Shown: in pieces, positions 1-64,000 of the stretch
How the letters are laid out: each line of letters begins with the position of its first letter
Position numbering within the stretch: position 1 is the stretch's first letter
Source of the DNA: Microbacterium protaetiae
Lineage (GTDB): Bacteria > Actinomycetota > Actinomycetes > Actinomycetales > Microbacteriaceae
Length of the DNA stretch: 64,000 nt
Direction: 5' to 3'
Assembly (NCBI RefSeq): GCF_004135285.1
Contig: NZ_CP035494.1
Coordinates: 620,001 to 684,000 of the forward strand
Notes under the pieces: model-generated
The model's database searches: none
What the model saw: only the letters and a program-made list of their open reading frames with translations
What the model was told of the DNA's origin: nothing
Translations under genes and position numbers: made by a program

Positions 1-58
1 CCGAGATGAGAATGCCCTCGCTGGGGCGCGGGCCGACGTATCCGACGATTCCACACAT
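1..58 (-). CDS. glmS: GlmS, glutamine-fructose-6-phosphate aminotransferase (5' end only)
   Basis: The 19 visible codons begin MCGIVGYVG. This is the signature N-terminus of GlmS, in which Cys2 (the N-terminal residue after Met removal) is the glutaminase nucleophile. The enzyme makes glucosamine-6-phosphate from fructose-6-phosphate and glutamine, the first step towards UDP-GlcNAc and peptidoglycan. The rest lies outside the window. glmM, encoding the next enzyme of the pathway, is 3.3 kb away on the same strand. Other class-II glutamine amidotransferases (PurF, AsnB) start differently, so the call is fairly safe despite the short stretch. Confidence 0.85.
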   Translation of the reverse strand, partial: MCGIVGYVGPRPSEGILIS

Positions 59-65
59 GGGGTCA

Positions 66-71
66 ATCGTA
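66..71 (-). promoter_or_regulatory. -10 element of glmS, probably leaderless
   Basis: On the minus strand TACGAT ends 7 nt before the glmS ATG and there is no Shine-Dalgarno sequence. The transcript would therefore start at or within a base or two of the ATG. No good -35 is visible. Confidence 0.5.
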
Positions 72-104
72 CGGAGAGGTGATTGCTAGGGATCTGAACA
101 AAGC

Positions 105-135
105 GGTGGGATGCCGCAGCCCGCGGCATCCCACC
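105..135 (-). terminator. Hairpin terminator after coaA, built from an inverted GGATGCCGC pair
   Basis: A 13-bp stem (GGTGGGATGCCGC and its complement) with a short loop lies just past the coaA stop. It is followed on the minus strand by TTTGTTC. Each arm contains the dispersed 9-mer GGATGCCGC described in the findings. Confidence 0.75.
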
Positions 136-139
136 CACG

Positions 140-2780: not shown

Positions 2781-3305
2781 CGGGCATGTCACGCAACCGG
2801 CGACCTCAGCCGCGGCGACCCGCACCTTCCGTGACACGCCTCAGGCCGCGGGTGCGCACCGGGCGTCTACGGTCACACACCGCCAGGGCATGTCACACAA
2901 CCGGCGACCTCACCGCCGACAACCCGCACCTTCTGTGACACGCCCCCGGCCGCAGGTGTGCCCGGGCGCCTTCGGTCACACACCACCACGGCATGTCACA
3001 CAACCGGTGACCTCACCGCCGACAACCCGCACATTCTGTGACACACCCCCGCGCCGCGTCACACAACCGGCGACCTCAACCACCGGCAACCCGCACATTC
3101 TGTGACACGCGCGACCGACACACCCCTGAGCCCGCAGGTGCGCGCCGCGCGTCTACGGTCACACACCGCCAGGCATGTCACACTACCGGCGACCTCAGCC
3201 GCGGCAACCCGCACCTTCTGTGACACGCCCCCGCGGCGCGTCACACAACCGGCGACCTCAGCCGCGGCAACCCACACTTTCTGTGACACGCGCGACCGAC
3301 ACAGC
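2781..3305. repeat. Six-copy imperfect array of hairpin-forming units between ppx and glmM
   Basis: About six units start near 2787, 2893, 2995, 3057, 3177 and 3239. Each runs from GTCACACAACCGGCGACCTC to TTCTGTGACAC, so each has inverted TGTCAC/GTGACA ends about 50 bp apart. Several are joined by a second shared stretch ending in GGTCACACACC. Unit spacing alternates between about 65 and 105 bp. Short open frames here are repeat artefacts. The array fills the whole junction of two convergent genes, so bidirectional termination is a plausible role. Confidence 0.85.
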
Positions 3306-3335: not shown

Positions 3336-4697
3336 CTACGCCGACAGCGCCAGGTGCTCGCGCACGACGTCGGCGAGACGTCCGGCGATCTGCGACGCGA
3401 TGTCGGCATCGGCCGCCTCGACCATCACCCGCACGAGCTGCTCGGTGCCTGATGCGCGCAGAAGCACGCGTCCGGTCGCGCCGAGCTTGGTCTCGGCCTC
3501 CACGACAGCCGCGGCGACAAGCGGATGCCCGACCTGCGTCCGGTCGACACCGGTCACGTTGACCAGCACCTGCGGATACACCGTCATCACAGAAGCCAAC
3601 GACGACAACGGCTGGCCCGTTTCGGCCATGCGCGCGAGCAGATGCAGTCCGGTCAGCAGCCCGTCGCCGGTGGTGGCGTACTTGCTCATGATGACGTGCC
3701 CCGACTGCTCCCCGCCCAGCGAGAAACCGCCCTCGTTCATACGCTCGAGCACATAGCGGTCGCCCACGGCCGTCTGCTCGACATGGATGCCCTGCTCAGC
3801 CATCGCGCGATGCAGACCGAGATTGCTCATCACGGTGGCCACCAGCGTGCCCGCTGCCAGCTGGCCGCGCTCCTTCATGGCCACGGCCAGGATGGCCATG
3901 ATCTGGTCGCCGTCGACGATGTTGCCCGCGGCATCCACAGCCAGACACCGGTCGGCGTCGCCGTCGTGCGCGATGCCCACGTCGGCACCCAGCCGCACGA
4001 CCTCGAGGGCGAGCTTGTCGATGTGCGTGGAACCGACACCGTCGTTGATGTTTATCCCGTCGGGGTCGGCCCCGATCACGGTGACCTGTGCGCCGGCATC
4101 GCGGAACACCTCGGGCGAGACGCCCGCGGCCGCGCCGTGCGCGCAGTCGAGCACCACGTGGATGCCGTCGAGACGGTGCGGCAGTGACTGCAGCAGGTGC
4201 ACGACGTACCGGTCTTCGGCGTCGGCGAAGCGGCGAATGCGTCCGACGTCGGCGCCGGTCGGCTGCAGCTTGGGCCGGCTCATGGCCGCCTCGATGCGCT
4301 GCTCGACGATGTCGGGCAGCTTGCGTCCGCCGCGCGCGAAGATCTTGATGCCGTTGTCGGGCGCGGGGTTGTGCGAGGCCGAGACCATCACGCCGAAGTC
4401 GGCGTCGATCGAGCCGATCAGGTAGGCCGCGGCGGGCGTGGGGATGACCCCCGCGTCGAGCACGTCGACTCCGGATGCCGCGAGCCCGGCCGAGACCGCG
4501 GCCGAGAGAAACTCGCCCGACACGCGCGGGTCGCGCGCGACGACGGCGGTGAGTCGCTTGCCGGCGGCGCGTCGCGCCTCGGCAGTACGACCCTGGCCCA
4601 GAACGACCGCGGTCGCCTGGGCCAGGGTGAGCGCCAATTCGGCGGTGAGGGGGCCGTTTGCCAGCCCCCGCACGCCATCGGTGCCGAAGAGAGCCAT
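3336..4697 (-). CDS. glmM: Phosphoglucosamine mutase
   Basis: A 453-residue GlmM that converts glucosamine-6-phosphate to glucosamine-1-phosphate for UDP-GlcNAc synthesis. The N-terminus [11 protein letters not shown] is typical. The phosphoserine loop is SASHNP with the active-site Ser at 108. The Mg2+ loop DGDADR and the C-terminal phosphate-binding RASGTE are present, so all four domains of the alpha-D-phosphohexomutase family are accounted for. The start lies 8 bp after the rpsI stop, making it the third gene of rplM-rpsI-glmM, a common actinobacterial arrangement. Confidence 0.97.
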
Positions 4698-5728: not shown

Positions 5729-5988
5729 CGTTGAGCGAGGCGGCGAAGCCGCCGAATCGAAACGGACCCGCGAAGGTGAACACGCCAGTGGAGGGCTCAC
5801 GTTCGTGTGCGTCAGCAGAGCGAACGCACCAAAGGGAGAGTCTACGGCATGCGGATGCCGCGGCCAAATGCCGCGCTCACGCCGGCCGTTGAGCGCCGCG
5901 GCGACGCGGGGCCTTGAGCGAGGCGGCGAAGCCGCCGAGTCGAAACGCCTCTCAGCTCGTCGAGCGACCGCAGCGAGTCGAAGCACGC
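5729..5988. repeat. TTGAGCGA...TCGAAAC palindromic elements in the rplM leader region
   Basis: Two good copies (5729-5764 and 5914-5947) of a roughly 34-bp element, TTGAGCGAGGCGGCGAAGCC then GCCGAGTCGAAAC, whose centre GGCGGCGAAGCCGCC folds on itself. A degenerate copy lies near 5957-5988. The same family recurs at 13861-13968. The first copy lies inside the predicted rplM mRNA leader. Confidence 0.75.
5839..5867 (-). promoter_or_regulatory. Promoter of rplM-rpsI-glmM
   Basis: Minus strand TTGGCC, exactly 17 bases, then TAGACT. Transcription would start near 5832. The spacer contains one copy of the dispersed GCGGCATCC motif. Confidence 0.55.
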
Positions 5989-7504: not shown

Positions 7505-8350
7505 CTACTCCTTCTCGCGCCGCGCGCGCGTCTGTTGGGCGCGGGTGGCCAGCAGCTCGTCGGCCGGGTACCCGACCTCGGCAAGCGTCAGGCCCCGCGC
7601 GGCCAGCACCTTGAAGGCACTCGTGCGCTCCCCCGCATCGCGCAGGGTCGCGGCATCCGCGACCGAAAGCCTGCCCTCGCCGACGGCCACGCACGCACCC
7701 ACGAGCGCACGTACCATGGAGTGGCAGAACGCATCGGCGCGGATGTTGGCCACCAGCACGCCGTCATCGGCGCGATGCCAATCGAACTCGAGCAGCGTGC
7801 GGATCGTGGTCGCCTCCTCGCGCGGCTTGCAGTAGGCGGCGAAATCGTGCAATCCGATCAGCGACCGAGCCGCGGCATCCATCGCCTCGACATCGAGAGA
7901 CGCCCGCACCGTCGTCGTGCGCGCGCGCTCGAGGGGATCGTAGCCGCTCACAAGATCGGCGACCCGGTACTCGTACCGCCGCCACACCGCCGAGAAGCGC
8001 GCGTCGAAGCCGTCGGGCGCCACCGAGGTGCGGTGTAGGGTCACGTCGGGATAAGCGCCCAGCGCGCCGCGCACGCGATGCGCGAGGCGTTCGACGGGGT
8101 CGGATGCCGCATCCCGCCGCGTCTGCGTGAAAAGGCGCTCGCGCTGCGCGTCGTCGAGGTCGAGATGGGCGACCTGCCCGCGCGCGTGCACGCCGGCATC
8201 GGTGCGCCCCGCCACGACCAGCCGCGGCTCATCGCCGAGGATGCGGCCGAGCGCATGCTCGAGGGTGCCCTGCACGGTGCGCAGGCCGGGCTGGCGCGCC
8301 CAGCCGCGAAAGTGCGTGCCGTCATAGGCGATGTCGAGGCGGATCCGCAC
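7505..8350 (-). CDS. truA: tRNA pseudouridine synthase A
   Basis: A 281-residue TruA, which makes pseudouridine at tRNA positions 38-40. The catalytic aspartate is D51 in AGRTDAGVHARGQVAH. YDGTHFRGW at the N-terminus and FCHSMVRALVG near the C-terminus are family hallmarks. The reading frame stays open upstream to 8506, but the GTG at 8350 starts the conserved N-terminus VRIRLDIAYDG. It lies 7 nt after TAGGCT, so it is probably leaderless. truA usually follows rplQ in actinobacteria; here an acyltransferase and repeats lie between them. Confidence 0.95.
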   Translation of the reverse strand: MRIRLDIAYDGTHFRGWARQPGLRTVQGTLEHALGRILGDEPRLVVAGRTDAGVHARGQVAHLDLDDAQRERLFTQTRRDAASDPVERLAHRVRGALGAYPDVTLHRTSVAPDGFDARFSAVWRRYEYRVADLVSGYDPLERARTTTVRASLDVEAMDAAARSLIGLHDFAAYCKPREEATTIRTLLEFDWHRADDGVLVANIRADAFCHSMVRALVGACVAVGEGRLSVADAATLRDAGERTSAFKVLAARGLTLAEVGYPADELLATRAQQTRARREKE

Positions 8351-8417: not shown

Positions 8418-10319
8418 ATGACACAGCCCTCTTCTTCTTCGCCCGCGCGCGCCCGATTCACGGGTTTGGACGGGCTGCGAGCCATCGCGGTGACCTTGGT
8501 GGTCATCTACCATCTCTTCCCGCAGGGGATGCTGCGCAGCGGCTTCGTGGGCGTCGATGTGTTCTTCGTGATCAGCGGTTTTCTCATCACGTCGCTGCTG
8601 CTGCGCGAGCGCGCGGCGACTGGCCGCATCGCCCTGGTCGATTTCTGGCGCCGCCGCGCCCGCCGGCTGCTGCCGGCCCTCGGCCTCGTCGTCACGGTCA
8701 CGGCCACCTGGGCGTGGCTCATCGGCGGCGACGTGCTCGTACACCTCGGGCGCCAAGTGCTGGGTGCTGTCACCTTCGGATACAACTGGGTCTCGGTCGC
8801 CGCCGGCACCGACTACTTCTCGGCCGACAGCCCCGAGCTGTTCCGCAACCTCTGGTCGCTGGCCGTCGAGGAGCAGTTCTACTGGGTCTGGCCGCTGCTG
8901 CTCCCCCTGCTGCTCCTCCTTCGGCGGCGGTGGGCGCTCGTACTCGTCGCCGTCGGCGTAGCCGCGGCATCCGCCGGCTGGATGGCTGCCCTGGTCGGTA
9001 CCGGCGGCGACGCCACTCGCGCCTACTTCGGCACCGACACGCACGCGTTCGGGCTGCTGCTGGGCGTCGCCCTCGCGGTCGGGCTCGAGCACGTCTTCGC
9101 CGCTCCCGGCACGTGGATGCGGCAGCGGCCAGCGCGCACCACCGGGTTGGTCGTCGGCCTGCTGAGCGTGCTCGGGCTGATCGCCGTGGCGACGCTGCCC
9201 GAGACGCAGGATGCCGCGACCTTCCCCGGCACGCTGGCTGCGGCATCCCTCCTCACGGCCGTCGCCATCGTTGCCGCCACGGCTCCCGGCTCATGGATCG
9301 GCGCCGCGCTGGACTGCGCCCCGCTGCGCTGGATCGGCGACCGGTCGTACGGCATCTACCTGTGGCACTGGCCGCTGCTCGTGCTGCTGGCCGCCGCAGG
9401 CGGGGTCACCGCCGATGCCCCGCCGGCCCGGGTCGGCGCCGCGACGCTCGCACTCACCGTCGTCTGCGCGTACCTCTCACACCGCTGGGTGGAACAGCCC
9501 GTGCGCCGACACGGCTTTCGCGGCACGCTCGGGATGCTGCGGGCCCGCCTCTCTGGAGCCCCCGCGCCGCGCTTCCGTGCAGTGACCGCGCTCGTGTTGG
9601 GGGTCGTGGTGATCGGCGGCACCACGGCGGCGATCGCCACGGCGCCCGGGCAGACGTCGGGGCAGGCTGTGGTCGAAGCGGGGCGCAAGGCTCTCGAAGA
9701 GGCCGGGCCGCGGCCTCCGCTGGTCGAGGACGACGCGTCACCTGCGCCGATGCGCGGGGATACGGCATCCATCGACGGACGCCAGATCGACGCCATCGGC
9801 GACTCGGTCATGCTCGCCTCGGCGCCGGCGTTGATGGATAAGTATCCGGGAATCCGCATCGATGCGAAGGTGTCACGCTCCATGTGGGCGGCGCCCGGGC
9901 TCGTCGACCGGCTCGCGCGCGACGGCGCGCTGCGCCCCTATCTCGTGGTCGGGCTCGGGACGAACGGCGCGATCGACCCCGACTCGCTCGACCGCGTCAC
10001 GCGCGCGCTGGGCCCCGAGCGGCGCCTCGTGCTGGTGACCGCCTACGCGCCCCGCCCGTGGATCACCGGGGTGAACAAGGCGCTGCGCGCCTATGCCGCC
10101 GCGCATCCCGACGTCATCGTCGCGGACTGGGCCGGGGCGATCGGGCCGCATAAAGATCTGCTCGCCGGCGACAACATCCACCCGGGCCCGGCCGGTGGTC
10201 GCTACTACGCCGACGCCGTCGCCGACGCGATCAGCGCCGACCAGCGGGCGCGGGTGCGCGAGCGGGCCCGGCTGATCCTGCGCGTGGGCGACCTCGTCGC
10301 CACGCCGCCGGGCGTCTGA
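8418..10319 (+). CDS. OatA-like membrane acyltransferase with SGNH domain
   Basis: A 633-residue two-domain protein. Residues about 12-410 are an acyltransferase-3 membrane domain with DGLRAIAV, the conserved His32 (VIYHLF), FVGVDVFFVISGFLI, WSLAVEEQFYWVWP and the terminal TM helix near 395-410. After a linker (411-455) comes an SGNH esterase-like domain with Ser464 in IDAIGDSVMLAS and the terminal D/H pair in GDNIHPG. This is the layout of peptidoglycan or polysaccharide O-acetyltransferases such as OatA, where the periplasmic SGNH domain hands acetyl to the glycan. The acceptor is unknown. The ATG at 8418 was chosen; an upstream in-frame start at 8331 would add residues that overlap truA. 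Confidence 0.9.
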   Translation: MTQPSSSSPARARFTGLDGLRAIAVTLVVIYHLFPQGMLRSGFVGVDVFFVISGFLITSLLLRERAATGRIALVDFWRRRARRLLPALGLVVTVTATWAWLIGGDVLVHLGRQVLGAVTFGYNWVSVAAGTDYFSADSPELFRNLWSLAVEEQFYWVWPLLLPLLLLLRRRWALVLVAVGVAAASAGWMAALVGTGGDATRAYFGTDTHAFGLLLGVALAVGLEHVFAAPGTWMRQRPARTTGLVVGLLSVLGLIAVATLPETQDAATFPGTLAAASLLTAVAIVAATAPGSWIGAALDCAPLRWIGDRSYGIYLWHWPLLVLLAAAGGVTADAPPARVGAATLALTVVCAYLSHRWVEQPVRRHGFRGTLGMLRARLSGAPAPRFRAVTALVLGVVVIGGTTAAIATAPGQTSGQAVVEAGRKALEEAGPRPPLVEDDASPAPMRGDTASIDGRQIDAIGDSVMLASAPALMDKYPGIRIDAKVSRSMWAAPGLVDRLARDGALRPYLVVGLGTNGAIDPDSLDRVTRALGPERRLVLVTAYAPRPWITGVNKALRAYAAAHPDVIVADWAGAIGPHKDLLAGDNIHPGPAGGRYYADAVADAISADQRARVRERARLILRVGDLVATPPGV

Positions 10320-12796: not shown

Positions 12797-12906
12797 TATG
12801 TGTTCCTTTCGTGCGACGTGCCCGCTATATGACACGTGCAGTTGGTGAGGTGTTGAGTTTTCTCCGAGGGATGCCGCAGACAGCCGACATCCGAAAGCAC
12901 GATGGT

Positions 12907-14558: not shown

Positions 14559-14596
14559 CTCGGCCGCTGAGCGGCATCCCGAGCCGGGCGGTGCGG

Positions 14597-15330: not shown

Positions 15331-16164
15331 CTATGTGAGGGGAACGGGGGTGATGCCGAACGGCGCCAGCCCCGCGGCTCCTCCGTCGGGCGCGGTGAGC
15401 ACCCAGATACCGCCATCATGCACGGCGACGCTATGTTCCCAATGTGAACCATCGGTGCCGTCGACGGTCGAAACGGTCCAGTCGTCATCGCCGACGACGG
15501 TCTCGTCGCTGCCGCCGACGACCATCGGCTCGATCGCCACGGCCAGTCCCGGCTTGACCTCGGGCCCAGGGGCGGGCACGCGATAGTTGAACACCGAAGG
15601 TGACTCGTGCATGCGGCGTCCGATCCCGTGGCCGACATAGTCACGAAGGATGCCGTAGCCGTGGCCGGATGCCTCGATGAAATCCTGTACCGCCCCGCCG
15701 ACCTCGCCCAGGTGCTTCGCCGTGGCCAGCGCGGCGATACCGGCCCACAGCGAGCCTTCGGTGACGCGGGAGAGCTCTTCGCGGGCGGCGACCAGCTCGG
15801 GCCGGGTGGGGTCGGGAACCACGACCGTGATCGCGGAGTCGCCGTTCCAGCCGCGGTATTCGGCCCCTGCATCCACCGACACTATGTCGCCGGGTGCCAG
15901 CACGCGCGCGCCCGGGATCCCGTGCACGACCTCGTCGTTCACCGAGACGCAGATGGTGTGCCGATACCCGCGCACCATCTGGAAATTGGAGAGCGCACCC
16001 CGGCTCTTCACGACCGCGGCGGCTGCGGCATCCAGCTGCAGAGTCGTGGTTCCGGGAACGATCAGCGCGCGCACCGCCTCGAGCATCGCCGCGGTGATCT
16101 GGCCGGGCTCGACCATCGCCCGCAGCTGCGCGGGCGACTTGTAGATGCCGCGTCGAAGACCCAC
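15331..16164 (-). CDS. map: Methionine aminopeptidase, type I
   Basis: A 277-residue MetAP that removes the initiator Met. The five metal ligands are in place: D98, D109, H179, E212 and E243, with the substrate-binding H81 and H186. There is no N-terminal zinc-finger or SH3-binding extension, so it is type Ia-like. It starts 1 bp after the adk stop. Confidence 0.95.
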   Translation of the reverse strand: MGLRRGIYKSPAQLRAMVEPGQITAAMLEAVRALIVPGTTTLQLDAAAAAVVKSRGALSNFQMVRGYRHTICVSVNDEVVHGIPGARVLAPGDIVSVDAGAEYRGWNGDSAITVVVPDPTRPELVAAREELSRVTEGSLWAGIAALATAKHLGEVGGAVQDFIEASGHGYGILRDYVGHGIGRRMHESPSVFNYRVPAPGPEVKPGLAVAIEPMVVGGSDETVVGDDDWTVSTVDGTDGSHWEHSVAVHDGGIWVLTAPDGGAAGLAPFGITPVPLT

Positions 16165-18087: not shown

Positions 18088-18139
18088 GTGGATTCCTCCA
18101 GAAGGGTTCCCGGCGCACACGCGGTGCGCACAGACAACC

Positions 18140-18145: not shown

Positions 18146-18185
18146 TCTCAGCGCGCCCACGGGGCGGGACGGCCGGGATGCGAGC

Positions 18186-18213: not shown

Positions 18214-18222
18214 TCTGCCTGA

Positions 18223-48975: not shown

Positions 48976-50360
48976 AATCGATGTTCCGCTCCCTGGGCCT
49001 TTTCAACTACCGCGTCTGGTTCATCGGCGCCCTCATCTCCAACATCGGCGGCTGGATGCAGTCCACGGCCCAGGACTGGGTCGTGCTCACCGAGCTGACG
49101 AACAACGACGCGACCGCGATGGGCGTCACGATGGCGCTGCAGTTCGGTCCGCCCCTGGTGCTGGTCAGCTTCACCGGCTGGGTCGCCGACCACTTCGATC
49201 GGCGCAAGCTGCTGATGTGCACGCAGACGGCGCTGGGCCTGCTGGCGATCACCGTCGGCGTGCTGCTGCTCACGCACGTCATGACGCTGCCCCTGATGTG
49301 GATGTTCGCCGGACTCTTCGGCATCGCCAACGCGTTCGACAGCCCGGCTCGCCAGGCGTTCGTCTCCGACGTCGTCTCGCGCGAGAACGCCGCCAACGCG
49401 GTCGCCCTGAACTCGGCATCCTTCAACACCGCACGCCTGATCGGTCCCGCCGTCGGCGGCATCATGATCGTGCTGGTGGGCACCGGCTGGATGTTCATGA
49501 TCAACGCGGTCACCTTCATCGCGATGCTCGTCGCCCTCTCGATGATGCGCCGTGACGAGCTCGAGCCCCGGGTGAAGGCGACGGATGCCACACGTTTGGC
49601 CGACGGCTTCCGCTATGTCGCCCGCCGCAAAGATCTGCTGGTGCTGTTCGTCATGGTCTTCCTCATCGGCGCGTTCGGGATGAACTTTCCGATCTTCGCC
49701 TCGACGATGGCGTTGGAGTTCGGGATGAAGGCCGACGGCTACGGGGCCTTGAGCTCGCTGCTGGCGATCGGCTCACTGGCGGGCGCGCTCATGGCTGCGC
49801 GGCGCGAGCGCGCCCGCATCCGCGTTGTGATCTATGCCGCCGGCGGATTCGGCATCGCCTCACTTGTCTCGGCCCTGATGCCGCAGTACTGGATGTACGG
49901 CGTGGTCGTGGTGTTCGTCGGCTTCACGACAGTGTCGATGCTGACCACGGCGAACGGCTATGTGCAGACCACCACCGACCCGCAACTGCGCGGGCGCGTA
50001 CTGGCCCTCTACATGGCGGTGATCATGGGGTCGACCCCCATCGGCGCGCCGATCGTCGGGTGGGTGGCCACCGCCTTCGGCCCGCGTACGGCCATCGACG
50101 TGGGCGCGGCCGCCGGGATCATCGCGTGCGCGATCGGCGCCGCGTGGTTCATCAGTTCGGGCCGGGTGCATCGCAGTGAGTCGAGCCGGTTCACGCTCAC
50201 CCTCGACGAGACGCGCCCCATCCAGGTGGTGCAGCCGAAGATCCCCGAGGAGTTCAGCGACGAGATCGCGCAGACGACGCCGATAGCTCTTCCGTCCGAT
50301 GACGAGGAACGGGATGCCGCGGCGCGGCCGCGTCGCCGGGTGGAGGACCAGCTCTCATGA
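48972..50360 (+). CDS. MFS exporter, DHA3/EntS-like
   Basis: 462 residues, 12 membrane helices and a 60-residue charged cytoplasmic tail. The N-terminal FRSLGLFNYRVWFIGALISNIGGWMQSTAQDWVVLTELT and FDSPARQAFVSDVV are typical of the EntS/DHA3 group of multidrug or siderophore exporters. ATG 48972 overlaps the marR stop. MarR control supports a drug efflux role. Confidence 0.9.
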   Translation: MKSMFRSLGLFNYRVWFIGALISNIGGWMQSTAQDWVVLTELTNNDATAMGVTMALQFGPPLVLVSFTGWVADHFDRRKLLMCTQTALGLLAITVGVLLLTHVMTLPLMWMFAGLFGIANAFDSPARQAFVSDVVSRENAANAVALNSASFNTARLIGPAVGGIMIVLVGTGWMFMINAVTFIAMLVALSMMRRDELEPRVKATDATRLADGFRYVARRKDLLVLFVMVFLIGAFGMNFPIFASTMALEFGMKADGYGALSSLLAIGSLAGALMAARRERARIRVVIYAAGGFGIASLVSALMPQYWMYGVVVVFVGFTTVSMLTTANGYVQTTTDPQLRGRVLALYMAVIMGSTPIGAPIVGWVATAFGPRTAIDVGAAAGIIACAIGAAWFISSGRVHRSESSRFTLTLDETRPIQVVQPKIPEEFSDEIAQTTPIALPSDDEERDAAARPRRRVEDQLS

Positions 50361-50373: not shown

Positions 50374-51315
50374 ATGCTGACCCCCGCCGACATCGGTGTG
50401 CGGGCGACCGCCTGGTACATCGCGCGGCGCGGCGAGCCGGCCGACTCACGACCCGACGTCGATACGGCATCGCTGCAGCGCCGCTTCGCGCATCTCGCAC
50501 CGGTGGCGGTGACCGACGTGCCGGTGAGCGGTCCGCACGGCGCGGTGCCGGCCCGGCTGTACCGCGACCCGGCCCAGCCGGCCCGCAACGCGTTCGTCTG
50601 GGTGCACGGCGGAGCCTTCTTCGGCGGCACGCTCGACATGCCCGAGTCGAACTGGGTCGGTCTCGAGTTGGCCGCGCACGGCATCCCCACCCTCGCCGTC
50701 GACTACCGCAAGGCGCTGCGCGGGGTGAGGCATCCCGTTCCCATCGACGACGTGCAGGCGGCGTGGGAGCACGCGACCGGCAATGCCGAGGCGCTCTTCG
50801 GCGCGGCATCCGACCGCGTGCACCTCGGCGGAGCCAGCGCCGGTGGCGCGATCGTGGCCGGGGTGAGCCTGCGCCTGCGCGACGACGGCGGCCGGATGCC
50901 GGCATCCCTCGTGCTCGCCTACCCGCTGATGCACCCCGACCTGCCACCGAACACCGCCGCAACGAAAGAGCTCATGGCCAAGATGCCCGCCCGGCTGCGC
51001 TTTCACCCCTCGGTCGTGCACGCGCTCGCGAAGCACTACGCGGGCCGGGCCGGACTGCGCGACCCATACGCCTTCGCGGGTGTCGCGAAGGATCTGCGCG
51101 GGCTGCCGCCCACCTACATTCTCGTGGCCGCCATCGACGATCTGCGCTCGTCGGGCGACATGTTCGCCCGCCAGCTGCGCGACGCCAGCGTGCGGGTCGA
51201 GCTGTTCGCCGAGCGCAGTGCCACGCACGGGTACCTCAACCACCCCGAGGCGAACTCGGCCCAGCGCAGCCTGACGCGCATCCGCGCGTGGATCGACGCC
51301 TTCGGCGATCACTAG
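50374..51315 (+). CDS. Alpha/beta hydrolase, hormone-sensitive-lipase family
   Basis: 313 residues of the HSL/family-IV esterase group. HGGAFF oxyanion motif at 78-83, nucleophile S155 in GGASAGG, catalytic Asp near AAIDDLRS and His in THGYLNH. No signal peptide. ATG 50374 follows GGAGG, 13 bp after the MFS stop, so it is probably the third gene of the marR operon. Confidence 0.9.
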   Translation: MLTPADIGVRATAWYIARRGEPADSRPDVDTASLQRRFAHLAPVAVTDVPVSGPHGAVPARLYRDPAQPARNAFVWVHGGAFFGGTLDMPESNWVGLELAAHGIPTLAVDYRKALRGVRHPVPIDDVQAAWEHATGNAEALFGAASDRVHLGGASAGGAIVAGVSLRLRDDGGRMPASLVLAYPLMHPDLPPNTAATKELMAKMPARLRFHPSVVHALAKHYAGRAGLRDPYAFAGVAKDLRGLPPTYILVAAIDDLRSSGDMFARQLRDASVRVELFAERSATHGYLNHPEANSAQRSLTRIRAWIDAFGDH

Positions 51316-51342: not shown

Positions 51343-52350
51343 ATGAGCACGGGGTCTCGGGCGACCACCATCGCCGAAGTCGCACGCCAGGCAGGCGTGT
51401 CTCCCGCGACCGTCTCTCGAGTGATGAACGGTCGGTTCCTGGGCGAGCCGCATGTCGAGCAGCGGGTGCGCTCGGTCGCCCAAGAGCTGAACTACTGGCC
51501 GAACTTTCGCGCGCGCAGCTTCGCGCTGGGAAAGACCAACACCGTCGCTTTTCTCGTGCCCGACCTGAGCAACCCCGCGTTCCATGCCGCCCTGACCGGG
51601 CTCAGCTCGGCGGCCGCCGAAGACGCGTATCGGGCGCTGGTGGCCGATTCGGCCGAGTCGGCCGACGATGAGCGACTGCTGGCCACCGAGCTGCGCGGGC
51701 GCTGCGATGCGCTCGTGCTGTGCGCCCCGCGCATGGACGAAGACGACCTCGTGCGGGTGACCGAAGAGCTCGCCCCGGTCGTGCTCTTGAACCGCTCGAG
51801 CCCCCGCGTCAGCGCCCCCACCATCGCCGTCGACTCCCATGCGGGCATCGAGCGCCTGGCACGCCACCTGTACGACCTCGGCCACCGCCGCATCGCCTAC
51901 CTGGAGGGACCGGCCGGCGTCGCCAACGCGAACCGGCTGAAGGGCATCGCCGATGTCACCGAGGCCACCTCGGGCATCGAGATCGTCCGGATCGCCGGGG
52001 GCGCCGGCAGCCGCGATGGGCTGGATGCCGCCGCCGCGGTGGCCGAGGCTGAGGTGACCGCCGTGCTGGCCTTCAATGACCTGGTGGCGATCGGGCTCGT
52101 GCACGGGCTGCTGGGCCGCGGCATCCGCGTGCCCGACGACATCTCGGTCACCGGATTCGATGACATCGCCTTCGCGCAGTTCATGTCGCCGTCGCTGACG
52201 ACGGTCTCGGTGCCGCACGAAGAACTCGGCGTGCTGGCCTGGGAGCGCATGCGCGCGCTCATCGAGGGGACCACACCCAAACACGACGTGCTGTTCCAGC
52301 CGCGCCTCGAGGTGCGCGAGTCGACCGCACCGCCGCCGCGCGCAGACTGA
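51343..52350 (+). CDS. LacI-family regulator (first)
   Basis: 335 residues. HTH and hinge helix TIAEVARQAGVSPATVSRVMNGR at about 8-30, then a periplasmic-binding-protein-like effector domain (VAFLVPDLSNPAFHAALTGL; VTGFDDIAFAQFMSPSLTTV). ATG 51343 is 5-6 nt after AAGGAG. It converges on glxK with only 28 bp between them, the one convergent junction here without room for repeats. Its target is unknown. Confidence 0.92.
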   Translation: MSTGSRATTIAEVARQAGVSPATVSRVMNGRFLGEPHVEQRVRSVAQELNYWPNFRARSFALGKTNTVAFLVPDLSNPAFHAALTGLSSAAAEDAYRALVADSAESADDERLLATELRGRCDALVLCAPRMDEDDLVRVTEELAPVVLLNRSSPRVSAPTIAVDSHAGIERLARHLYDLGHRRIAYLEGPAGVANANRLKGIADVTEATSGIEIVRIAGGAGSRDGLDAAAAVAEAEVTAVLAFNDLVAIGLVHGLLGRGIRVPDDISVTGFDDIAFAQFMSPSLTTVSVPHEELGVLAWERMRALIEGTTPKHDVLFQPRLEVRESTAPPPRAD

Positions 52351-52378: not shown

Positions 52379-53491
52379 TCACACGGCGTTGCGGGCGGCC
52401 AGCACCCGGCCCGCCGCGCGCAGCCAGCGCGCCGGATCGGCCAGCGCAGCCGCGGCACTCCCCGCGAGCTCGCTGAGCGACACCGTGGCCGAAAACCCCG
52501 CGAGATCGGCGTCGGGCGCTATGCGCCCGGCCACGAGGGCGACCGGCACGCCGGCGGCGGTGGCCAATGCCGCGACCTGCGCCGGCGCCTTTCCGCCGGC
52601 CGATTGCGCGTCGAACGACCCCTCCCCCGTGACGATGAGGGATGCCGCAGCCACCGCGTCGGCGAGTCCGATGAGTTCGGCGACCTCGGCCGAGCCCGAG
52701 ACCATGTGTGCGCCCCACGCCTGCAGGGCAAAACCCGTGCCGCCCGCGGCGCCCGCACCCACAGCGTTCGGGTCGGCGGCCGGGAGCGCGGTGGCCAGCA
52801 CGTCGGCCCAGTGCCGCAGCGCGGCATCCGCCCCCGGCACCTCGTCGGGGCTCAGGCCCTTCTGCGGGCCGAACACCGCGGCGGCGCCGGCGGGTCCGAG
52901 AAGCGGATTGGTGACGTCGCAGAGCACTATCACCCCGCCAGACGGGGGCGGGCGCAGGTCGGCGACATCGACGGTGGTGACGCTCGCGAGAGAGCGCAGG
53001 CCGTCGGCGGCGTCGAAGCGCGCCCCCAAAGCCCGCAGCATTCCGGCACCGCCGTCGGTCGAAGCGCTCGAGCCGATGCCGAGGGCCAGCCGTGAGACGC
53101 CCCGGTCGAGGGCGGCGGCGATCGCCTGACCGAAACCGATCGTGTGCGCGTCGAAGGGCAGACGGGCCCGGCCGAGCAGCTCGATGCCGCTCGTCGAGGC
53201 GAGTTCGACGACGCCGGTGCCGCCGGGGGCCTCGGGGGTGGGCGGAAGCAGCATCCAGGCGGCGTCGACCTCACGCCCGTCGGGGCCGGTGACGACCACC
53301 GGCATGCGCTGCGCCGCGGGCACGGCGGCCGCGAAGGCGTCGAGCGTGCCCTCGCCCCCGTCGGCCATCGGGCGGGCCACGAGCCGGGCGTTGCCGGCGA
53401 CCTCGCGCCACCCGGCGGCGAGCGCATCGCAGGCGGCAGCAGCCGTGATCGATCCCTTGAAGCTGTCGGGCGCGAGCAGTATCTGGGTCAT
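52379..53491 (-). CDS. Glycerate 2-kinase-type glycerate kinase
   Basis: 370 residues of the GarK/GlxK family: APDSFKGSITA at the N-terminus, MADGGEGTLDAF, GIGSSASTDGGAGMLRALGA and TGEGSFDAQSAGGKAPAQVA. It phosphorylates D-glycerate so it can enter lower glycolysis. ATG 53491 overlaps the LacI stop by 4 bp. Its place at the end of the carbohydrate locus suggests that the pathway releases glycerate, or hydroxypyruvate/tartronate semialdehyde reduced to it. Confidence 0.92.
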   Translation of the reverse strand: MTQILLAPDSFKGSITAAAACDALAAGWREVAGNARLVARPMADGGEGTLDAFAAAVPAAQRMPVVVTGPDGREVDAAWMLLPPTPEAPGGTGVVELASTSGIELLGRARLPFDAHTIGFGQAIAAALDRGVSRLALGIGSSASTDGGAGMLRALGARFDAADGLRSLASVTTVDVADLRPPPSGGVIVLCDVTNPLLGPAGAAAVFGPQKGLSPDEVPGADAALRHWADVLATALPAADPNAVGAGAAGGTGFALQAWGAHMVSGSAEVAELIGLADAVAAASLIVTGEGSFDAQSAGGKAPAQVAALATAAGVPVALVAGRIAPDADLAGFSATVSLSELAGSAAAALADPARWLRAAGRVLAARNAV

Positions 53492-54528
53492 GCCGCGCGC
53501 GTGGGCGTGGACTCGCGCACCACGACCTCGAGGTCGAACGCGGCCTGGCCGCTCCAGTCGTCGAGGGTGGCCGCACGGAACGTCTCAAATCCCAGGGCGT
53601 CGAGCGGAACCCGCACCGTGGTCAGCGACGGGGTGACGTCGCGGCCGGTCGGGATGTCATCGAAGCCGGCCACGGCGACATCGGCGCCGACCTCGCGCCC
53701 GGCGGCGCGGATGCCCGACATCGCCCCGATGGCCACGACATCGCTCACGCCGAACAGCACGGTGCCGGGGGCGACACCCGCCGCGAGAGCCTCGGCGGCC
53801 AGCCGTTCGCCGGCTTCGCGGCTGAAGTCGCCCCGGTGAATGCGGGCCACGGTGCCGCCTTCGGCCGTGAACCCCTCGGTGAACCCGACGATGCGGTCGT
53901 CGGAGGTGCGCACGCCCTCTGCCGCGGCGAGGATGACGGCCTCGCGGTATCCGCGCTCGGCCAGGGCCGCGCCCAGGGCGCGGGCGCCACCGCGGTTGTC
54001 GACGGTGACCGCCCGCAGGCCGTCGGCCGGAGGCCCGACCACCACAATGCGGCTGCCCGCATCGGCGATGGCCTCGAGCTCTGCCTGCAGTTCGTCGCGC
54101 GCCGATTCTGCGGTGCGGGATGCCGCGAGGATGATGCCCCGCGGGCGCTGTCCGCGCAGCGCGTGGATGACCCGCTGCTCGCGCTCGGCGTCGCGCTCGG
54201 TCGTGGCGATCGTCACCACCAGCCCGGCCTCGTCGGCGCCGCGGGCGACACCGGCGGCGATCTGGCCGAAGTACGGGTCGGCGATATCGGCCACCAGCAG
54301 CGCGATGATCGCACTCGTGCCCCGCGCGGTGGCCTGGGCGGAGAGATTGGCCGTGTAGCCGAGGCGGGATGCCGCATCTTGCACCCGCTCGCGGTATGAC
54401 TCGGCGACCTTGCGGGTCGATCCGTTCAGCACCCGCGACGCTGTGGCGAGAGACACGCCCGCCTCGTGCGCGACATCATGCAGCGTCGGCGCCGCGGTGC
54501 GCACCCGAGCAACCCTGGTATCGGACAT
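53488..54528 (-). CDS. LacI-family regulator of the carbohydrate locus (second)
   Basis: 346 residues. HTH TLHDVAHEAGVSLATASRVLNGS at about 15-37 and a type-I periplasmic-binding domain (AGFDDIPTGRDVTPSLTTV). It lies between the isomerase and glycerate kinase genes and overlaps the latter. It is the natural candidate to bind the AAGCGCTT operators at 57814 and 61942. The frame open to 54843 has no ribosome-binding site and is not LacI-like. Confidence 0.92.
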   Translation of the reverse strand: MSDTRVARVRTAAPTLHDVAHEAGVSLATASRVLNGSTRKVAESYRERVQDAASRLGYTANLSAQATARGTSAIIALLVADIADPYFGQIAAGVARGADEAGLVVTIATTERDAEREQRVIHALRGQRPRGIILAASRTAESARDELQAELEAIADAGSRIVVVGPPADGLRAVTVDNRGGARALGAALAERGYREAVILAAAEGVRTSDDRIVGFTEGFTAEGGTVARIHRGDFSREAGERLAAEALAAGVAPGTVLFGVSDVVAIGAMSGIRAAGREVGADVAVAGFDDIPTGRDVTPSLTTVRVPLDALGFETFRAATLDDWSGQAAFDLEVVVRESTPTRAA

Positions 54529-54548: not shown

Positions 54549-55412
54549 TCACAGATGCGGCGAGACGGCCGCGCCGAAACCGGCCGCGGTGCGTCGCACC
54601 GCCTCGAGGGGATCGGTGGCCCAGACGTCTTCGTTGAAGATCTCCACCTCGATGTCGCGGTCGTATCCCGACGCGAGAACGGCCCGGGTCATCGGTCCGA
54701 AATCGATGACTCCGTCGCCCGGGTAATGCCGGCCCAGCAGTACATCGGCCGGCAGCGGCGTCTGCCAGTCGCAGACCTGGTAGGTGGCGATGCGCCCCTC
54801 GCGGCCGGCACGCTCGATCTGGGGCAGCACGTCGGGATCCCACCAGATGTGGAAGGTGTCGACGGTGACCCCGACCACAGCCGGATCGAAGTCGGCAGCG
54901 ACATCCAGGGCCTGCCCGAGGGTCGAGATCACACAGCGGTCGGACGCATACATGGGATGCAGCGGCTCGATCGACAGCGTCACGCCGGCGGCGGCGGCAT
55001 CGGGTGCGAGTTCGCCGATGGCATCGTGCACACGTTCGCGGGCACCGGCCAAGTCACGCGAGCCTTCGGGCAGACCACCCGCGACCAGCACCAGCACGGC
55101 GGTGGAGCCGGGTGCCCCGGCGGTGGCCAGTGTCGCGGTCTCTTCGATGGCGACGCGGTTGTCATCCAGCGATGCGCGGCGGGCCGGCCCCTCGGGCGCG
55201 GTGAAGAAGCCACCGCGGCAGTGCGTCGAGAAGCGCAGGCCCGAATCGGCGAGCATGCGGGCAGCGGCATCCAGCCCCACCTCTTGCACCGGCTCGCGCC
55301 ACAGTCCGATCGCCTGCACGCCTGCCTGCGCGGTCACCCGCAGCGCGGTGGCCAGATCGGCGTGCTTGATCGTGGCCTGGTTGATCGACAGGCGCGGGTC
55401 GGGAGCGGTCAT
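54549..55412 (-). CDS. Sugar phosphate isomerase/epimerase (xylose-isomerase-like TIM barrel)
   Basis: 287 residues with the AP-endonuclease-2/xylose-isomerase-like barrel: LSINQATIKHADLATALRVTAQAGVQAIGLW, metal ligands in TLSIEPLHP, VGVTVDTFHIWWDPD, YQVCDWQTP and IEVEIFNED. Members include isomerases, epimerases, 3-keto-sugar hydrolases and C-glycoside deglycosidases, so the reaction is open. Its ATG overlaps the DUF993 gene by 4 bp. Confidence 0.88.
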   Translation of the reverse strand: MTAPDPRLSINQATIKHADLATALRVTAQAGVQAIGLWREPVQEVGLDAAARMLADSGLRFSTHCRGGFFTAPEGPARRASLDDNRVAIEETATLATAGAPGSTAVLVLVAGGLPEGSRDLAGARERVHDAIGELAPDAAAAGVTLSIEPLHPMYASDRCVISTLGQALDVAADFDPAVVGVTVDTFHIWWDPDVLPQIERAGREGRIATYQVCDWQTPLPADVLLGRHYPGDGVIDFGPMTRAVLASGYDRDIEVEIFNEDVWATDPLEAVRRTAAGFGAAVSPHL

Positions 55413-56611
55413 GCGTCGACTCCGTTCAGGGTCAGGAGTGCGTGCCACCGGGCGGCGGCAAGCTCGGGGCGCTCGAACGCCTTGGCGGCGTTGGCGAGTT
55501 GGACGATGCGTGCCAGGTGCGGCAGGCTGCGTGCGGAGTGCAGTCCGCCCACCATCTGGAAGGCGCTCTGGTGTCCGTTCAGCCACGACAGAAAGGCGAC
55601 GCCGGTCTTGTAGTAGAACGTGGGCGCCGCGAACACCTGACGCGAGAGCTGCTCGGTCGGCCCGAGGATCTCGAGGTAGCGCGCCGGGTCGCCGGCATCG
55701 AGCGCCTGGATCGCCGCCGAGGCCACCGGGGTGATCGCTGCGAAGGCACCCAGCAGAGCGTCGGAGTGCTGGCGCGGGGATGCCGGATCCCGCGCCGGCT
55801 GCGGCGCGTCGGGCACGTCCGCCCCACCGATGAGGCCCACATAGTTGAAGTCGTCGCCGGTGAACATGCGCACGCCCTCGGGAAGGCGCTCGCGCACTGC
55901 CACCTCGGACTCGGCGTTGAGCAGACTCATCTTCACGCCGGCGATCTTGCCCGGGTTCTCGGCGATGATGCGCAACAGCGTCTCAGAGGCCTCGCGCCAG
56001 TCGGACGAGCCGAAATACCCCTCGAGCTGAGGGTCGAACGCTGTGCCCAGCCAGTGGATGACCACCGGCACACTCGCCGACTGCAGCACGGCCGCATACA
56101 CGCGCAGATAGTCGGTGCGGCTCGTCGCCGTACGCGCGAGGTGGCGCGAGGCCATCAGCACGGGGCCGGCCCCCTGCTCCTCGGTGAAATGCAGCTGCTC
56201 CTTATAGGCGTCGATGATCTGCTCGAGGCTCAGGTGCTCGTCGTCGATGTGGTCGGTGTTGACCCCGACCACCACCGAGCCGCCCTCTTCACGGGCCACC
56301 TGCGCCGACCGCGAAATGAGCTCACGGGTGGCTGCGGCATCCAGCCCCATGTTCCGCTGGGCGGTGTCCATGGCGTCGGCGACGCCCAGCCCCCAGGAGT
56401 ACACGTTGCGCCGAAAGGCGAGGGTGGCGTCCCAGTCGATCTGCGCCGGCTGGCCGGGCGTGTTCTGGCCCCACGCGACCGGTACGACGTGCGCGGCCGC
56501 GTAGGCGACCCGGCTGCGCAGCGGCGCGGTCGGCCGCGTGTAGCCTGAGCTGTCGACCAGCTCGGTGCGGGTGAGGGCGCCGTCGGCGCCCAGGAGTGTC
56601 AGCCATGCCAT
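55409..56611 (-). CDS. DUF993 family, dihydrodipicolinate-synthase-like aldolase fold
   Basis: 400 residues. Recognised as DUF993 from the whole pattern: LRSRVAYAAAHVVP, NTPGQPAQIDWDATLAFRR, VVVGVNTDHID, VPVVIHWLGTAFDPQLEGYFGS, IAGVKMSLLNAESEVAVRERLP and MFTGDDFNYVGLI. IAGVKMSL is at the place where DHDPS/KDG-aldolase-type enzymes carry the Schiff-base lysine. No biochemical function is established to my knowledge. Coupled to both neighbours (overlap with isomerase, 1 bp after Gfo/Idh), so the three act in one pathway. Confidence 0.85.
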   Translation of the reverse strand: MAWLTLLGADGALTRTELVDSSGYTRPTAPLRSRVAYAAAHVVPVAWGQNTPGQPAQIDWDATLAFRRNVYSWGLGVADAMDTAQRNMGLDAAATRELISRSAQVAREEGGSVVVGVNTDHIDDEHLSLEQIIDAYKEQLHFTEEQGAGPVLMASRHLARTATSRTDYLRVYAAVLQSASVPVVIHWLGTAFDPQLEGYFGSSDWREASETLLRIIAENPGKIAGVKMSLLNAESEVAVRERLPEGVRMFTGDDFNYVGLIGGADVPDAPQPARDPASPRQHSDALLGAFAAITPVASAAIQALDAGDPARYLEILGPTEQLSRQVFAAPTFYYKTGVAFLSWLNGHQSAFQMVGGLHSARSLPHLARIVQLANAAKAFERPELAAARWHALLTLNGVDA

Positions 56612-61839: not shown

Positions 61840-61941
61840 CCTTGTCCTCTCTTGTGCGTCGTCGCGTGATCCTGCGGGACGCCCTTGTCGGTCGTGCGAG
61901 GGATGCAGGCGCTCACGGTTCCGAGGTGGGACACCGGGTGT

Positions 61942-61957
61942 GGGAAAGCGCTTGCCC
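61942..61957 (-). promoter_or_regulatory. LacI-family operator in front of the ABC importer operon
   Basis: GGGAAAGCGCTTGCCC, a palindrome sharing GGxAAGCGCTTxCC with the site at 57814. It lies between the propeller glycosidase and the binding-protein gene, so the importer has its own regulated promoter. Confidence 0.75.
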
Positions 61958-61993
61958 GGTCAGACTAATCCACCGGCAAGCGAATAGCAACAC

Positions 61994-62944
61994 TCAGCGG
62001 TCATCAATTTGAGACGATTCAATAACGGTCGCGGTGAGCACACCGTCGACCACCGTCAGCCGACTGCGATAGACGGCGCTGCGCCGGTCGTCAAGCGAGG
62101 TCGCCTCGGCGCCGCGGTCGGGTGCGGCCAGCGGGTGCCCGAACCAGTAGAACCACATCCGGTCGCCCTCGCGCACGGCTGCGCCATGGTGGGCACGCGG
62201 TGCGCCGTCGTCGCCGGCCAGGATGACATCGTCGGGTCCACCCTGCCGCTCCCAGGTCACCGCGTCGGGCGAGCGGTGCACAGCAAGACCCCGCCACTCA
62301 TCGGTGATCATCCACCACCAGCCGCCCAGCGCGAACACGAAGGGGCCTTCATGCGCGCGGCCGCCGATCGCTGTGCCCGCGGCATCCCACCGACGCAGAT
62401 CGGTCGAGGTCGCCACCTTGGTGACCGAGCCGGCCGCTTCATCCTTGTACCACAGCCGCCAGAGGCCGTCGGGGCACCGCGTCACGGCGGCGTCGATCAC
62501 GCGGTCGCTGTCCAGCGCAAGCTCTGCGACGCGACGCCAGTCGCGCAGGTCGGCCGAGGAGTACTCCACGATGCGCCGGGCATGGCCGGGCCATCGGTCG
62601 GGAACGCCGTCGATCTCGGTGAGGTACATCCGCCAGCGGGCACCGTCGTGCACCACCTCGGGCGCCCAGTGTGTGGCATCCACCACCACCGGCGGACCGT
62701 CGGCATTCAGCCTCAGCCCCGCAGCATCCGGCTCCAGCGTGCCCGCGTACGACCACGCGACGCCGTCGGCCGAGCGCGCGACGCCGATGCGGCTGCCGTG
62801 CACCCAGCTCACCCCCGGTCCCGGATCGGGGTGGCCGGCACGCCGCTGCGTGTAGAACATCCACCACCCGTCGTCGGCGATCACGACGGTCGGATCGGTC
62901 GCTCCGTCATAGACCGGGTCGCGATACAGCTCGTGCACACTCAT
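61994..62944 (-). CDS. Five-bladed beta-propeller glycosidase-like protein (GH43/GH32 clan-like)
   Basis: 316 residues with propeller repeats of the type RIGVARSADGVAWSYAGTL and IVEYSSADLRDWRRV. Possible acidic triad: D17 in TDPTVV, an Asp in VIDAAVTR and a Glu in HEGPFVF, matching the GH43 pattern DP / D / EGP. No signal peptide, so it would act on imported oligosaccharide. The substrate is not determined. The ATG overlaps the Gfo/Idh stop by 4 bp. Confidence 0.8.
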   Translation of the reverse strand: MSVHELYRDPVYDGATDPTVVIADDGWWMFYTQRRAGHPDPGPGVSWVHGSRIGVARSADGVAWSYAGTLEPDAAGLRLNADGPPVVVDATHWAPEVVHDGARWRMYLTEIDGVPDRWPGHARRIVEYSSADLRDWRRVAELALDSDRVIDAAVTRCPDGLWRLWYKDEAAGSVTKVATSTDLRRWDAAGTAIGGRAHEGPFVFALGGWWWMITDEWRGLAVHRSPDAVTWERQGGPDDVILAGDDGAPRAHHGAAVREGDRMWFYWFGHPLAAPDRGAEATSLDDRRSAVYRSRLTVVDGVLTATVIESSQIDDR

Positions 62945-64000
62945 CCCTCGCGCATGTCGGTGACCGGGCTTGCGAAGCCCCGGCGGTGCGTGGGATGGAC
63001 GGCGATGTCGGCCGGGGTCAGCACGGCGCCGTCGGCGGCGGCCGACGCGTAGATCCCCGCGACCAGCTCGAAGGTACGGGCCGGCTCGTCGGCGGTCTCG
63101 GGCAGCGGGGCCCCGGTCAGCAGCGCATCGAACACGTCACGCAGCAGCGGCGCGTGGTCGCTGCGCTCCTCGATCTCGGGCAGCGCCCAGGCGGCGGCCT
63201 CGGCCTCGAACCCCGGCGCGGGAGTGATCTTCCAATTCTCGTGTCCGTGCCCGTAGAGGTGCTCGACGGTCACTGTCGCCTTCTGGGTGTCGATGCGGAT
63301 GGCGCTCACCTCGCGGGGCGAGACGGCACTGGTGACGACCTGGGCGACGACGCCGTTTGCAAATGTCACCGTGGCCGTCGAAGCATCCTCCACCTCGATG
63401 TCACGGTCCAGGCGCCACAGCCGCGCTTGCACGCTCGCCCAGTCGCCCAGCAGGTATCCGAGCAGATCCAGCTGATGGATGCCGTGACCCAGCGTGGTCC
63501 CGCCGCCCTCGGTCGCCCACTTGCCCCGCCAGGGCACCGCGTAATAGTCGTCGCCGCGGTACCAGAGCGTCTGGCACACGGCCAGCAGCGGACGGCCGAG
63601 AGCGCCGTCGGCCAGCAGCCGCTTCACGTGCGCGGCGGCCGTTCCGGTGCGCTGCTGGAAGACGACCGCCAGGCGCCGGTCGGCAGCGTCGGCGGCACGG
63701 CGCATCTCGTCGAGTTCGTCCAGCGACGACGCCGGCGGTTTCTCGACCACGACGTGGGCGCCGGCGGCCAGCGCGACCAGCGTCTGGTCGTGGTGGGCGA
63801 CCGGCGGGGTGCACACCAGCACGACGTCGGGGTGTTCGGTGGCCAGCAGCTCGTCGAGGGTGTCGTAGACGGCGGGCACGCTCCAGCGGGCGGCGAACTC
63901 GTCGGCGCGCTCGCGACTCAGGTCGGTGACGGCGACAAGCTCGGCGCGCGGATGCGCGGCCACCGCGCGGGCATGCAGCTGCGCGACCCCTCCGGTGCCG
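62941..64000 (-). CDS. Gfo/Idh/MocA-family dehydrogenase (5' end cut by the window)
   Basis: 353 visible codons, reading through the window edge. The first visible residues GTGGVAQLHARAVAAHPRAEL are the Rossmann dinucleotide loop, so only about 5-10 residues are missing. VVVEKPPASSLDEL holds the conserved EKP, and GTTLGHGIHQLDLLGYLLGD the C-terminal domain. The Met at 63963 lies inside the Rossmann loop and is not the start. Coupled to the propeller glycosidase; second dehydrogenase of the locus. Confidence 0.93.
   Translation of the reverse strand, partial: GTGGVAQLHARAVAAHPRAELVAVTDLSRERADEFAARWSVPAVYDTLDELLATEHPDVVLVCTPPVAHHDQTLVALAAGAHVVVEKPPASSLDELDEMRRAADAADRRLAVVFQQRTGTAAAHVKRLLADGALGRPLLAVCQTLWYRGDDYYAVPWRGKWATEGGGTTLGHGIHQLDLLGYLLGDWASVQARLWRLDRDIEVEDASTATVTFANGVVAQVVTSAVSPREVSAIRIDTQKATVTVEHLYGHGHENWKITPAPGFEAEAAAWALPEIEERSDHAPLLRDVFDALLTGAPLPETADEPARTFELVAGIYASAAADGAVLTPADIAVHPTHRRGFASPVTDMREG

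Follow-up and report, generated by a model that had tools for sequence, protein, structure and literature searches.

A short DNA word written throughout the genome of Microbacterium protaetiae: a putative uptake sequence with dialects among the Microbacteriaceae

The DNA uptake sequences (DUS) of the Neisseriaceae and the uptake signal sequences (USS) of the Pasteurellaceae are the closest described counterparts of the element considered here, a nine-letter word, GGATGCCGC (reverse complement GCGGCATCC), repeated in a stretch of Microbacterium protaetiae DNA (hereafter the window: the whole 64,000 nucleotides analyzed, positions 620,001 to 684,000 of contig NZ_CP035494.1, assembly GCF_004135285.1) and throughout the genome from which it derives. 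Neisserial DUS occur at densities on the order of one per kb. As described for DUS, which form inverted pairs near terminators and exist as lineage-specific dialects (PMC3630211), GGATGCCGC is a short word found on both strands, within genes and in inverted pairs, and it too has dialects. In the Neisseriaceae, according to the same account, one word replaces another within the family while its core is kept (Frye et al. 2013, PMC3630211). Unlike DUS, the word of M. protaetiae, a putative uptake sequence, belongs to another phylum and has another sequence. The CTG core given for all neisserial dialects (PMC3630211) is absent from GGATGCCGC and its complement, while one dialect described below, GGATGCTGC, happens to contain CTG. 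Furthermore, a ComP-like type IV pilin is not known here, the pili being of the Tad/Flp kind only. GGATGCCGC does share ATGCCG with the longer neisserial AT-DUS, which we take to be most likely a matter of chance.

The resemblance to USS lies in the nine-nucleotide length, the copy number and the pairing; USS are described as words of this size with generally at least 1000 copies and hairpin pairs in terminators (PMC1852404). Both the word and the phylum are again different, and T-rich tails are rare in M. protaetiae. ComN, predicted to be the USS receptor, belongs to the minor pilins of type IV pili (PMC12616744). In one Pasteurellaceae species, a shortened USS had been overlooked by earlier searches before it was described (PMC1852404). 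Among the actinobacteria, Micrococcus luteus is transformed via Flp pili (PMC6370729, PMC8467076); like M. protaetiae, it encodes comEA and comEC together with two tad-like clusters, one of them with flp in M. luteus (PMC6370729). The single M. luteus paper examined on this point contains neither "uptake sequence" nor "uptake signal" (PMC8467076). A 2025 paper names Neisseriaceae and Pasteurellaceae as the sole families known to possess such systems (PMC12616744), and the uptake words described in a terminator survey of 2026 belong to the same two (PMC13020248). Both families are Gram-negative. An earlier note on the window, made from its letters, knew of no such sequence in Microbacteriaceae, and the open-access literature (without preprints) likewise shows none among the matches listed; text matches for the 9-mer itself, among those listed, carry unrelated titles.

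A word enriched at the DNA level across the genome

The window contains 51 exact copies, 24 of GGATGCCGC and 27 of GCGGCATCC, compared to a mean of 2.54 and a maximum of 7 in 100 dinucleotide shuffles, and no other 9-mer is as common there. The earlier note had counted about 50 copies by eye, with the same split between strands, and had considered them strongly over-represented; its approximate positions prove accurate to within about 15 bases, and its GC content of about 70% is 67.3% when measured. Confinement to the window, which the note had named as a reason to abandon the idea, can be dismissed, since the entire genome (a single contig of 3,790,483 bases) carries 2763 copies, 1380 on the plus strand and 1383 on the minus strand, vs 59 of the reversed word used as a control (30 and 29). 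Word statistics were obtained from a 464-kb sample, comprising the window and 20 evenly spaced 20-kb stretches, as well as from whole-genome counts of chosen words. The sample yields 330 copies where an order-3 Markov model, built with the motif included, predicts 27, and every one of its 21 stretches has the word, at densities of 0.25-1.10 per kb. One-base variants in the sample are unevenly tolerated. Most of those at positions 1-5 are near expectation (largest excess 20 vs 10 or 8 vs 3); for positions 6 and 7, the change from C to T yields words in approximately 3-fold excess, the rest being near expectation; all three variants of position 8 are 3 to 5 times over expectation, and those of position 9 are 1.7 to 3.4 times over. 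Such a pattern would be expected of a word whose core is strict and whose end is tolerant. Conservation of the flanks stops beyond about four bases.

The enrichment resides in the DNA rather than in codons or peptides. According to a purpose-written, simple codon-usage gene caller, with approximate starts, coding sequence makes up 86% of the sample; 271 copies (82%, 0.68 per kb) lie in predicted genes and 59 (0.90 per kb) lie between them. Two of the 271 extend partly outside a gene, and the codon tests employ 270. As the earlier note had observed, the usual coding readings are DAA and AAS, the former in the frame [nnG]-D-A-A with 118 copies vs 14.3 predicted by codon usage and the latter with 85 vs 1.1. 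The other frames exceed codon-usage expectation as well: G-I with 37 vs 13.8, M-P with 15 vs 3.9, R-H-P with 12 vs 0.4 and G-C-R with 3 vs 0.2. Since the excess extends to all six frames, dicodon bias, the other outcome that the note had held capable of overturning its proposal, is ruled out. Asp codons ahead of GCC-GCn make the same point. A preceding codon ending in G completes GGATGCCGC, and here GAT outnumbers GAC by 118 to 1; after a C-ending codon, which serves as the control, the counts are 14 GAT and 29 GAC (Fisher P 2e-20). Similarly, 85 of the 193 AAS tripeptides in the sample are written GCG-GCA-TCC where 1.1 are expected, and the middle Ala of GCG-Ala-TCC is GCA in 85 of 89 cases, even though GCA accounts for just 9% of all Ala codons.

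The codons inside the copies are also better kept than the same codons elsewhere, as a comparison suggested by the earlier note reveals. It was based upon 81 comEC-region loci, from the source genome and 80 relatives; the counts are ordered pairs of related loci and hence not independent, and sites with a differing peptide were listed apart. At 80-90% protein identity, GCA was retained in 228/290 motif positions compared to 2698/27657 others, and GAT in 342/552 compared to 13247/48164. Among AAS sites having GCA without the full motif, GCA was retained in 57/110, and among DAA sites having GAT without the motif, GAT was retained in 124/400. Below 70% identity, no effect is left relative to motif-free DAA sites (874/1540 vs 491/902 for GAT), while motif GAT is still above other GAT (24776/71818).

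Neither strand is preferred, as the earlier note had proposed. With dnaA at C1:1428297 and the terminus placed opposite, the 330 sampled copies divide into 162 leading and 168 lagging (P 0.78), in accordance with the even genome-wide counts. Close pairing is directional. The inverted arrangement GGATGCCGC-N(1-12)-GCGGCATCC occurs at 32 places and the everted order at just 1, each vs 6.0 expected. Twenty of the 32 inverted pairs are intergenic, and 10 of these 20 sit between converging genes, a class that, across the sample, constitutes 15% of the intergenic regions (P 0.0002) and 18% of the intergenic bases (P 0.001). The three inverted pairs that had been noticed by eye in the window are found at 109-131, 21110-21137 and 37737-37758.

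Several regions are poor in the word. The rRNA operon at 29595-34858 has 0 copies vs about 4.2 expected (P 0.015), as had been remarked. A deficit in the ribosomal protein cluster had been suggested as well and does exist, albeit mildly: 18223-28892, taken as the ribosomal-protein region without naming every gene, has 5 copies vs about 8.5 at mean window density. A BREX defense island of low GC content (0.623) at L009:5125-19846 (G000:C1:1525125-1539846), recognized from Pfam matches to BrxA, BrxC, an Eco57I-type methylase, a phage-type integrase, a Schlafen/AlbA_2 protein and PglZ, is devoid of GGATGCCGC, with 0 copies vs 10.7 at the genome mean density (P 2e-5) and vs 5.5 after scaling for dinucleotide composition (P 0.004). 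This is one island, and its bounds are gene ends in the sample picked after the gap in copies had been noticed.

Dialects and competence genes among the Microbacteriaceae

We surveyed 299 Microbacteriaceae genomes and 230 further genomes from other families of the same order. The core GGATGCCG is widely enriched in the family and far weaker in the other 230 genomes. By hand count, 29 of the 299 have at least 1000 copies of GGATGCCGC, and the family ranges from 2858 (G142) to 5 (G249). Even under a single genus label (g1), copies vary from 138 (G164, control 79) to 2763. Outside the family there are 11 to 408 copies, the highest being G521 with 408 vs a control of 122; one family, f4, reaches up to seven times control, yet no more than 158 copies. 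The base preceding GGATGCCGC is C in 48 to 73% of copies for five other genera compared to 35% in the source genome, and GGATGCCGG is favored in loci L060 and L064.

Genomes poor in GGATGCCGC were screened for alternative words, and two replacements emerged. In G035, of genus g36, GGAGGCGCG occurs 109 times in 200 kb vs 13.4 expected, and its 10-mer GGAGGCGCGG occurs 78 times vs 4.2; the copies fall in all six frames and are denser in intergenic than in coding DNA (1.72 vs 0.41 per kb). Across whole genomes, GGAGGCGCG has 1355 to 2043 copies in 6/6 sampled g36 genomes (controls 189 to 256), which themselves have 90 to 107 copies of GGATGCCGC, about the control level. In g32, five of six genomes have 631 to 941 copies and the sixth has 362 (controls 172 to 254); in g56, one of five has 1064 (control 337). 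The remaining genomes do not exceed about 2.4 times control by eye, and the source genome itself has 50 copies vs a control of 65. In G031 and G055, GGAGGCGCG was not among the top 9-mers in short samples, though its whole-genome counts are high. The second replacement, GGATGCTGC, has 1170 copies in each of Microbacterium sp. AG1240 and Gd 4-13 (controls 115 and 99) and 76 to 458 in eleven other Microbacterium genomes. The 21.6-kb comEC loci of AG1240 and Gd 4-13 contain 1 and 2 copies of GGATGCCGC, respectively. Given their equal counts, the two may be near kin and represent a single event.

Other candidates from this screen are not claimed as dialects. GGATCC, with C before and G after favored, is about 3 times enriched in GGATGCCGC-poor L108-L111, L177-L179 (G164), L066, L087, L090 and L101; being both palindromic and enriched merely 3-fold, it was not accepted for G164, L066, L087, L090 or L101. 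GGATGGCC appears 11 times in the 21.6 kb of L085 (M. barkeri), a number too low to support a claim. No clear uptake-like word was evident in G051 when screened for over-represented words. In L120-L123 (G045), GTATCGAGA / CGTATCGAG is strongly over-represented and is probably a piece of a longer repeat.

The earlier note had advised a search for competence genes. comEA and comEC are found together within C1:3479632-3483396. The comEA product has SLBB and HHH domains, and the gene after comEC was read by eye as holA, though its 190-aa piece has no Pfam match. The ComEC matches are concentrated in Microbacterium: 263 loci were confirmed, and among the 80 best named ones 78 are from this genus, those of M. 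luticocti and M. elymi being nearest (73%). Two Tad/Flp loci are also present, one at L025:7587-10428 (T2SSE, T2SSF, DUF4244, TadE) and the other at L026:9085-13474 (T2SSE, T2SSF, TadE, Tad).

Proposed biased uptake and the alternatives

To our knowledge, biased uptake followed by recombination is the only process that writes an asymmetric word at about one per kb on both strands and through codons, with inverted pairs and with dialects. The likeness to DUS and USS drawn in the earlier note is supported at the sequence level by copy number, strand symmetry, pairs between converging genes and dialects, and the one copy-free BREX island would fit it as well. We consider GGATGCCGC to be a putative DUS/USS-like DNA uptake sequence of a naturally transformable Microbacterium lineage and assign this reading a probability of roughly 75%. 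The word itself, its enrichment, symmetry and pairing, its dialects and the competence and pilus genes are direct observations, and from them we infer preferential uptake, its receptor and uptake drive as the cause of the pattern. A putative surface DNA receptor, most likely a Tad/Flp minor pilin feeding ComEA and ComEC, would prefer word-bearing DNA. Preferred uptake and subsequent homologous recombination would then spread word-carrying alleles, such that copies would build up at any site where protein function and regulation allow it, on either strand, with hairpin pairs favored between converging genes. Much of the Microbacteriaceae may operate the same kind of system in different dialects. 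With somewhat greater reserve, we think it probable that this constitutes a family-wide form of self-recognition in DNA uptake that arose in Gram-positive cells independently of Neisseriaceae and Pasteurellaceae, is read by a receptor of Tad/Flp pili and uses the dialects GGATGCCGC, GGATGCTGC and GGAGGCGCG to keep mating groups apart, both between genera and inside Microbacterium itself.

Several observations weigh against biased uptake. The pairs had been placed at gene ends and terminators, and the first of these narrows to a preference for converging genes: a gene 3' end of some kind is adjacent to 17 of the 20 intergenic pairs, which is not above chance (P 0.25). A stem followed by at least 4 T within 8 bases is found in only 4 of the 32, so intrinsic termination is not claimed. 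Predicted genes contain 12 of the 32, and when copies within 60 bp of each other are counted regardless of orientation, the excess is only slight (21 vs 15.8). Usage of the six reading frames is very uneven, from 3 to 118 copies. The 20-kb stretch L016 has just 7 copies despite its housekeeping genes (CTP synthase, an FtsJ-type methyltransferase and a SMC_N/RecN-like protein), and thus low density alone is no mark of foreign DNA. The words of the GGATCC-rich genomes, as mentioned previously, are weak and palindromic. Uptake or transformation data for Microbacteriaceae were not found in the open-access literature. The comEC of this assembly (L027:8212-10549, C1 approximately 3480.2-3482.5 kb) is split into two frames meeting near L027:9899-9930; the frameshift is either an assembly error or a recent loss. 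A single comEC frame of at least 700 aa is present in 77 of 80 relatives, and hence intact genes exist. In a near relative, M. elymi (L049), the frame is likewise short at 526 aa. Finally, ComEC is encoded by 293 of the 299 family genomes, motif-free ones included. Its presence therefore does not discriminate and explains nothing by itself, and it was rejected as a discriminator, while the same distribution hints that the Microbacteriaceae could be generally competent.

Chi sites, too, are short, over-represented words, and a Chi-type recombination hotspot, read by a nuclease-helicase resembling RecBCD, AddAB or AdnAB and serving to protect or repair the chromosome, would fit both the high copy number and the absence from an acquired island, with dialects that could follow the enzyme. 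Known Chi words are polar, favoring one orientation relative to replication. GGATGCCGC is symmetrical to replication, and the leading and lagging counts given above led us to reject Chi-type polarity; a hotspot also offers no reason for 32 inverted pairs vs 1 everted. We regard this explanation as unlikely. The inverted-only pairing is equally unexplained if each copy is instead selected as the binding site of a chromosome-organizing or regulatory protein involved in nucleoid structure, segregation or division. The presence of the word in all 21 sample stretches and the conservation of synonymous positions would agree with such a protein, whereas thousands of copies, mostly in genes, together with switches of dialect are better accommodated by uptake drive. 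Segregation and division sites, moreover, are normally clustered or polar, and this possibility seems to us slightly more doubtful still.

The last two candidates have very little left in their favor. Debris of a word-carrying mobile repeat, whether a repetitive extragenic palindrome (REP)-like element or a miniature transposon, could be suspected from copies lying in short repeats, such as the 33-bp unit at L013:15123-15222. The flanks end their conservation after about four bases and 271 of the 330 sampled copies are inside predicted genes; with no longer conserved unit and copies mainly genic, we rejected this origin as highly improbable. A codon, dipeptide or neighbor-dependent mutation bias draws its appeal from the two frames (DAA and AAS) that hold 75% of the coding copies (203/270). 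The codon-usage products for these frames fall far short of the counts, Asp codon choice tracks one base of the adjacent codon, intergenic density is not lower than coding density and most one-base variants at positions 1-5 remain near expectation. At the level addressed by the codon tests, dicodon or peptide bias was rejected, and we would be most surprised if bias of this type were responsible.

If the uptake reading is true, it would represent a third independent origin of such words, this time in the Gram-positive Actinomycetota, and would thereby put to the test the idea that sexual bacteria generally come to evolve uptake words. It would also suggest a sequence-reading ability of Tad/Flp pili and predict the transformability of a large environmental family. 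On the practical side, placing the word on donor DNA would provide a simple genetics aid in bacteria that are hard to engineer.

Individual copies in the window and other repeats

Window copies are exact matches of GGATGCCGC (plus) or GCGGCATCC (minus). The pair at 109-131 consists of 109-117 (plus), located 8 bp away from the 3' end of a gene, and 123-131 (minus). The arms of the pair at 21110-21137 are 21110-21118 (plus) and 21129-21137 (minus); this pair and the 3' end of the predicted gene 21122-21712 (minus strand) overlap. The perfect palindromic pair at 37737-37758 has its left arm at 37737-37745 (plus), 25 bp from a gene 3' end, and its right arm at 37750-37758 (minus). A looser inverted pair, with a gap of 22, is formed by 9209-9217 (plus) and 9240-9248 (minus). 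The other plus-strand copies are located at 1104-1112, 4473-4481, 5853-5861, 8102-8110, 12869-12877, 17641-17649, 28676-28684, 36517-36525, 37290-37298, 38401-38409, 40183-40191, 40488-40496, 41047-41055, 43749-43757, 45456-45464, 50312-50320, 52023-52031, 52640-52648, 54118-54126 and 54367-54375. Those on the minus strand are at 393-401, 3928-3936, 7650-7658, 7872-7880, 8964-8972, 14571-14579, 16025-16033, 16524-16532, 18686-18694, 22793-22801, 36047-36055, 36608-36616, 39654-39662, 42210-42218, 43903-43911, 45352-45360, 47378-47386, 50803-50811, 52118-52126, 52821-52829, 55264-55272, 56334-56342 and 62379-62387.

Additional repeats were encountered along the way. L013:15123-15230 is a tandem repeat whose 33-bp unit contains GGATGCCGC. 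Tandem arrays of a 20-bp unit around GGACAACTC, for example GGGACAACTCGCGCAACCCG, occupy window positions 28091-28269, 29353-29551 and 41389-41851; GGACAACTC has 226 copies genome-wide, many of those listed being clustered at 20-bp spacing, and is unrelated to GGATGCCGC. Another clustered word, TTCTGTGACA, occurs in the window at 2931-3288 as well as at L006:16269-16828, L015:14590-15146 and L017:8533-9055 and 17457-19282, with a spacing of tens to a few hundred bases and with both orientations represented in L006, L015 and L017.

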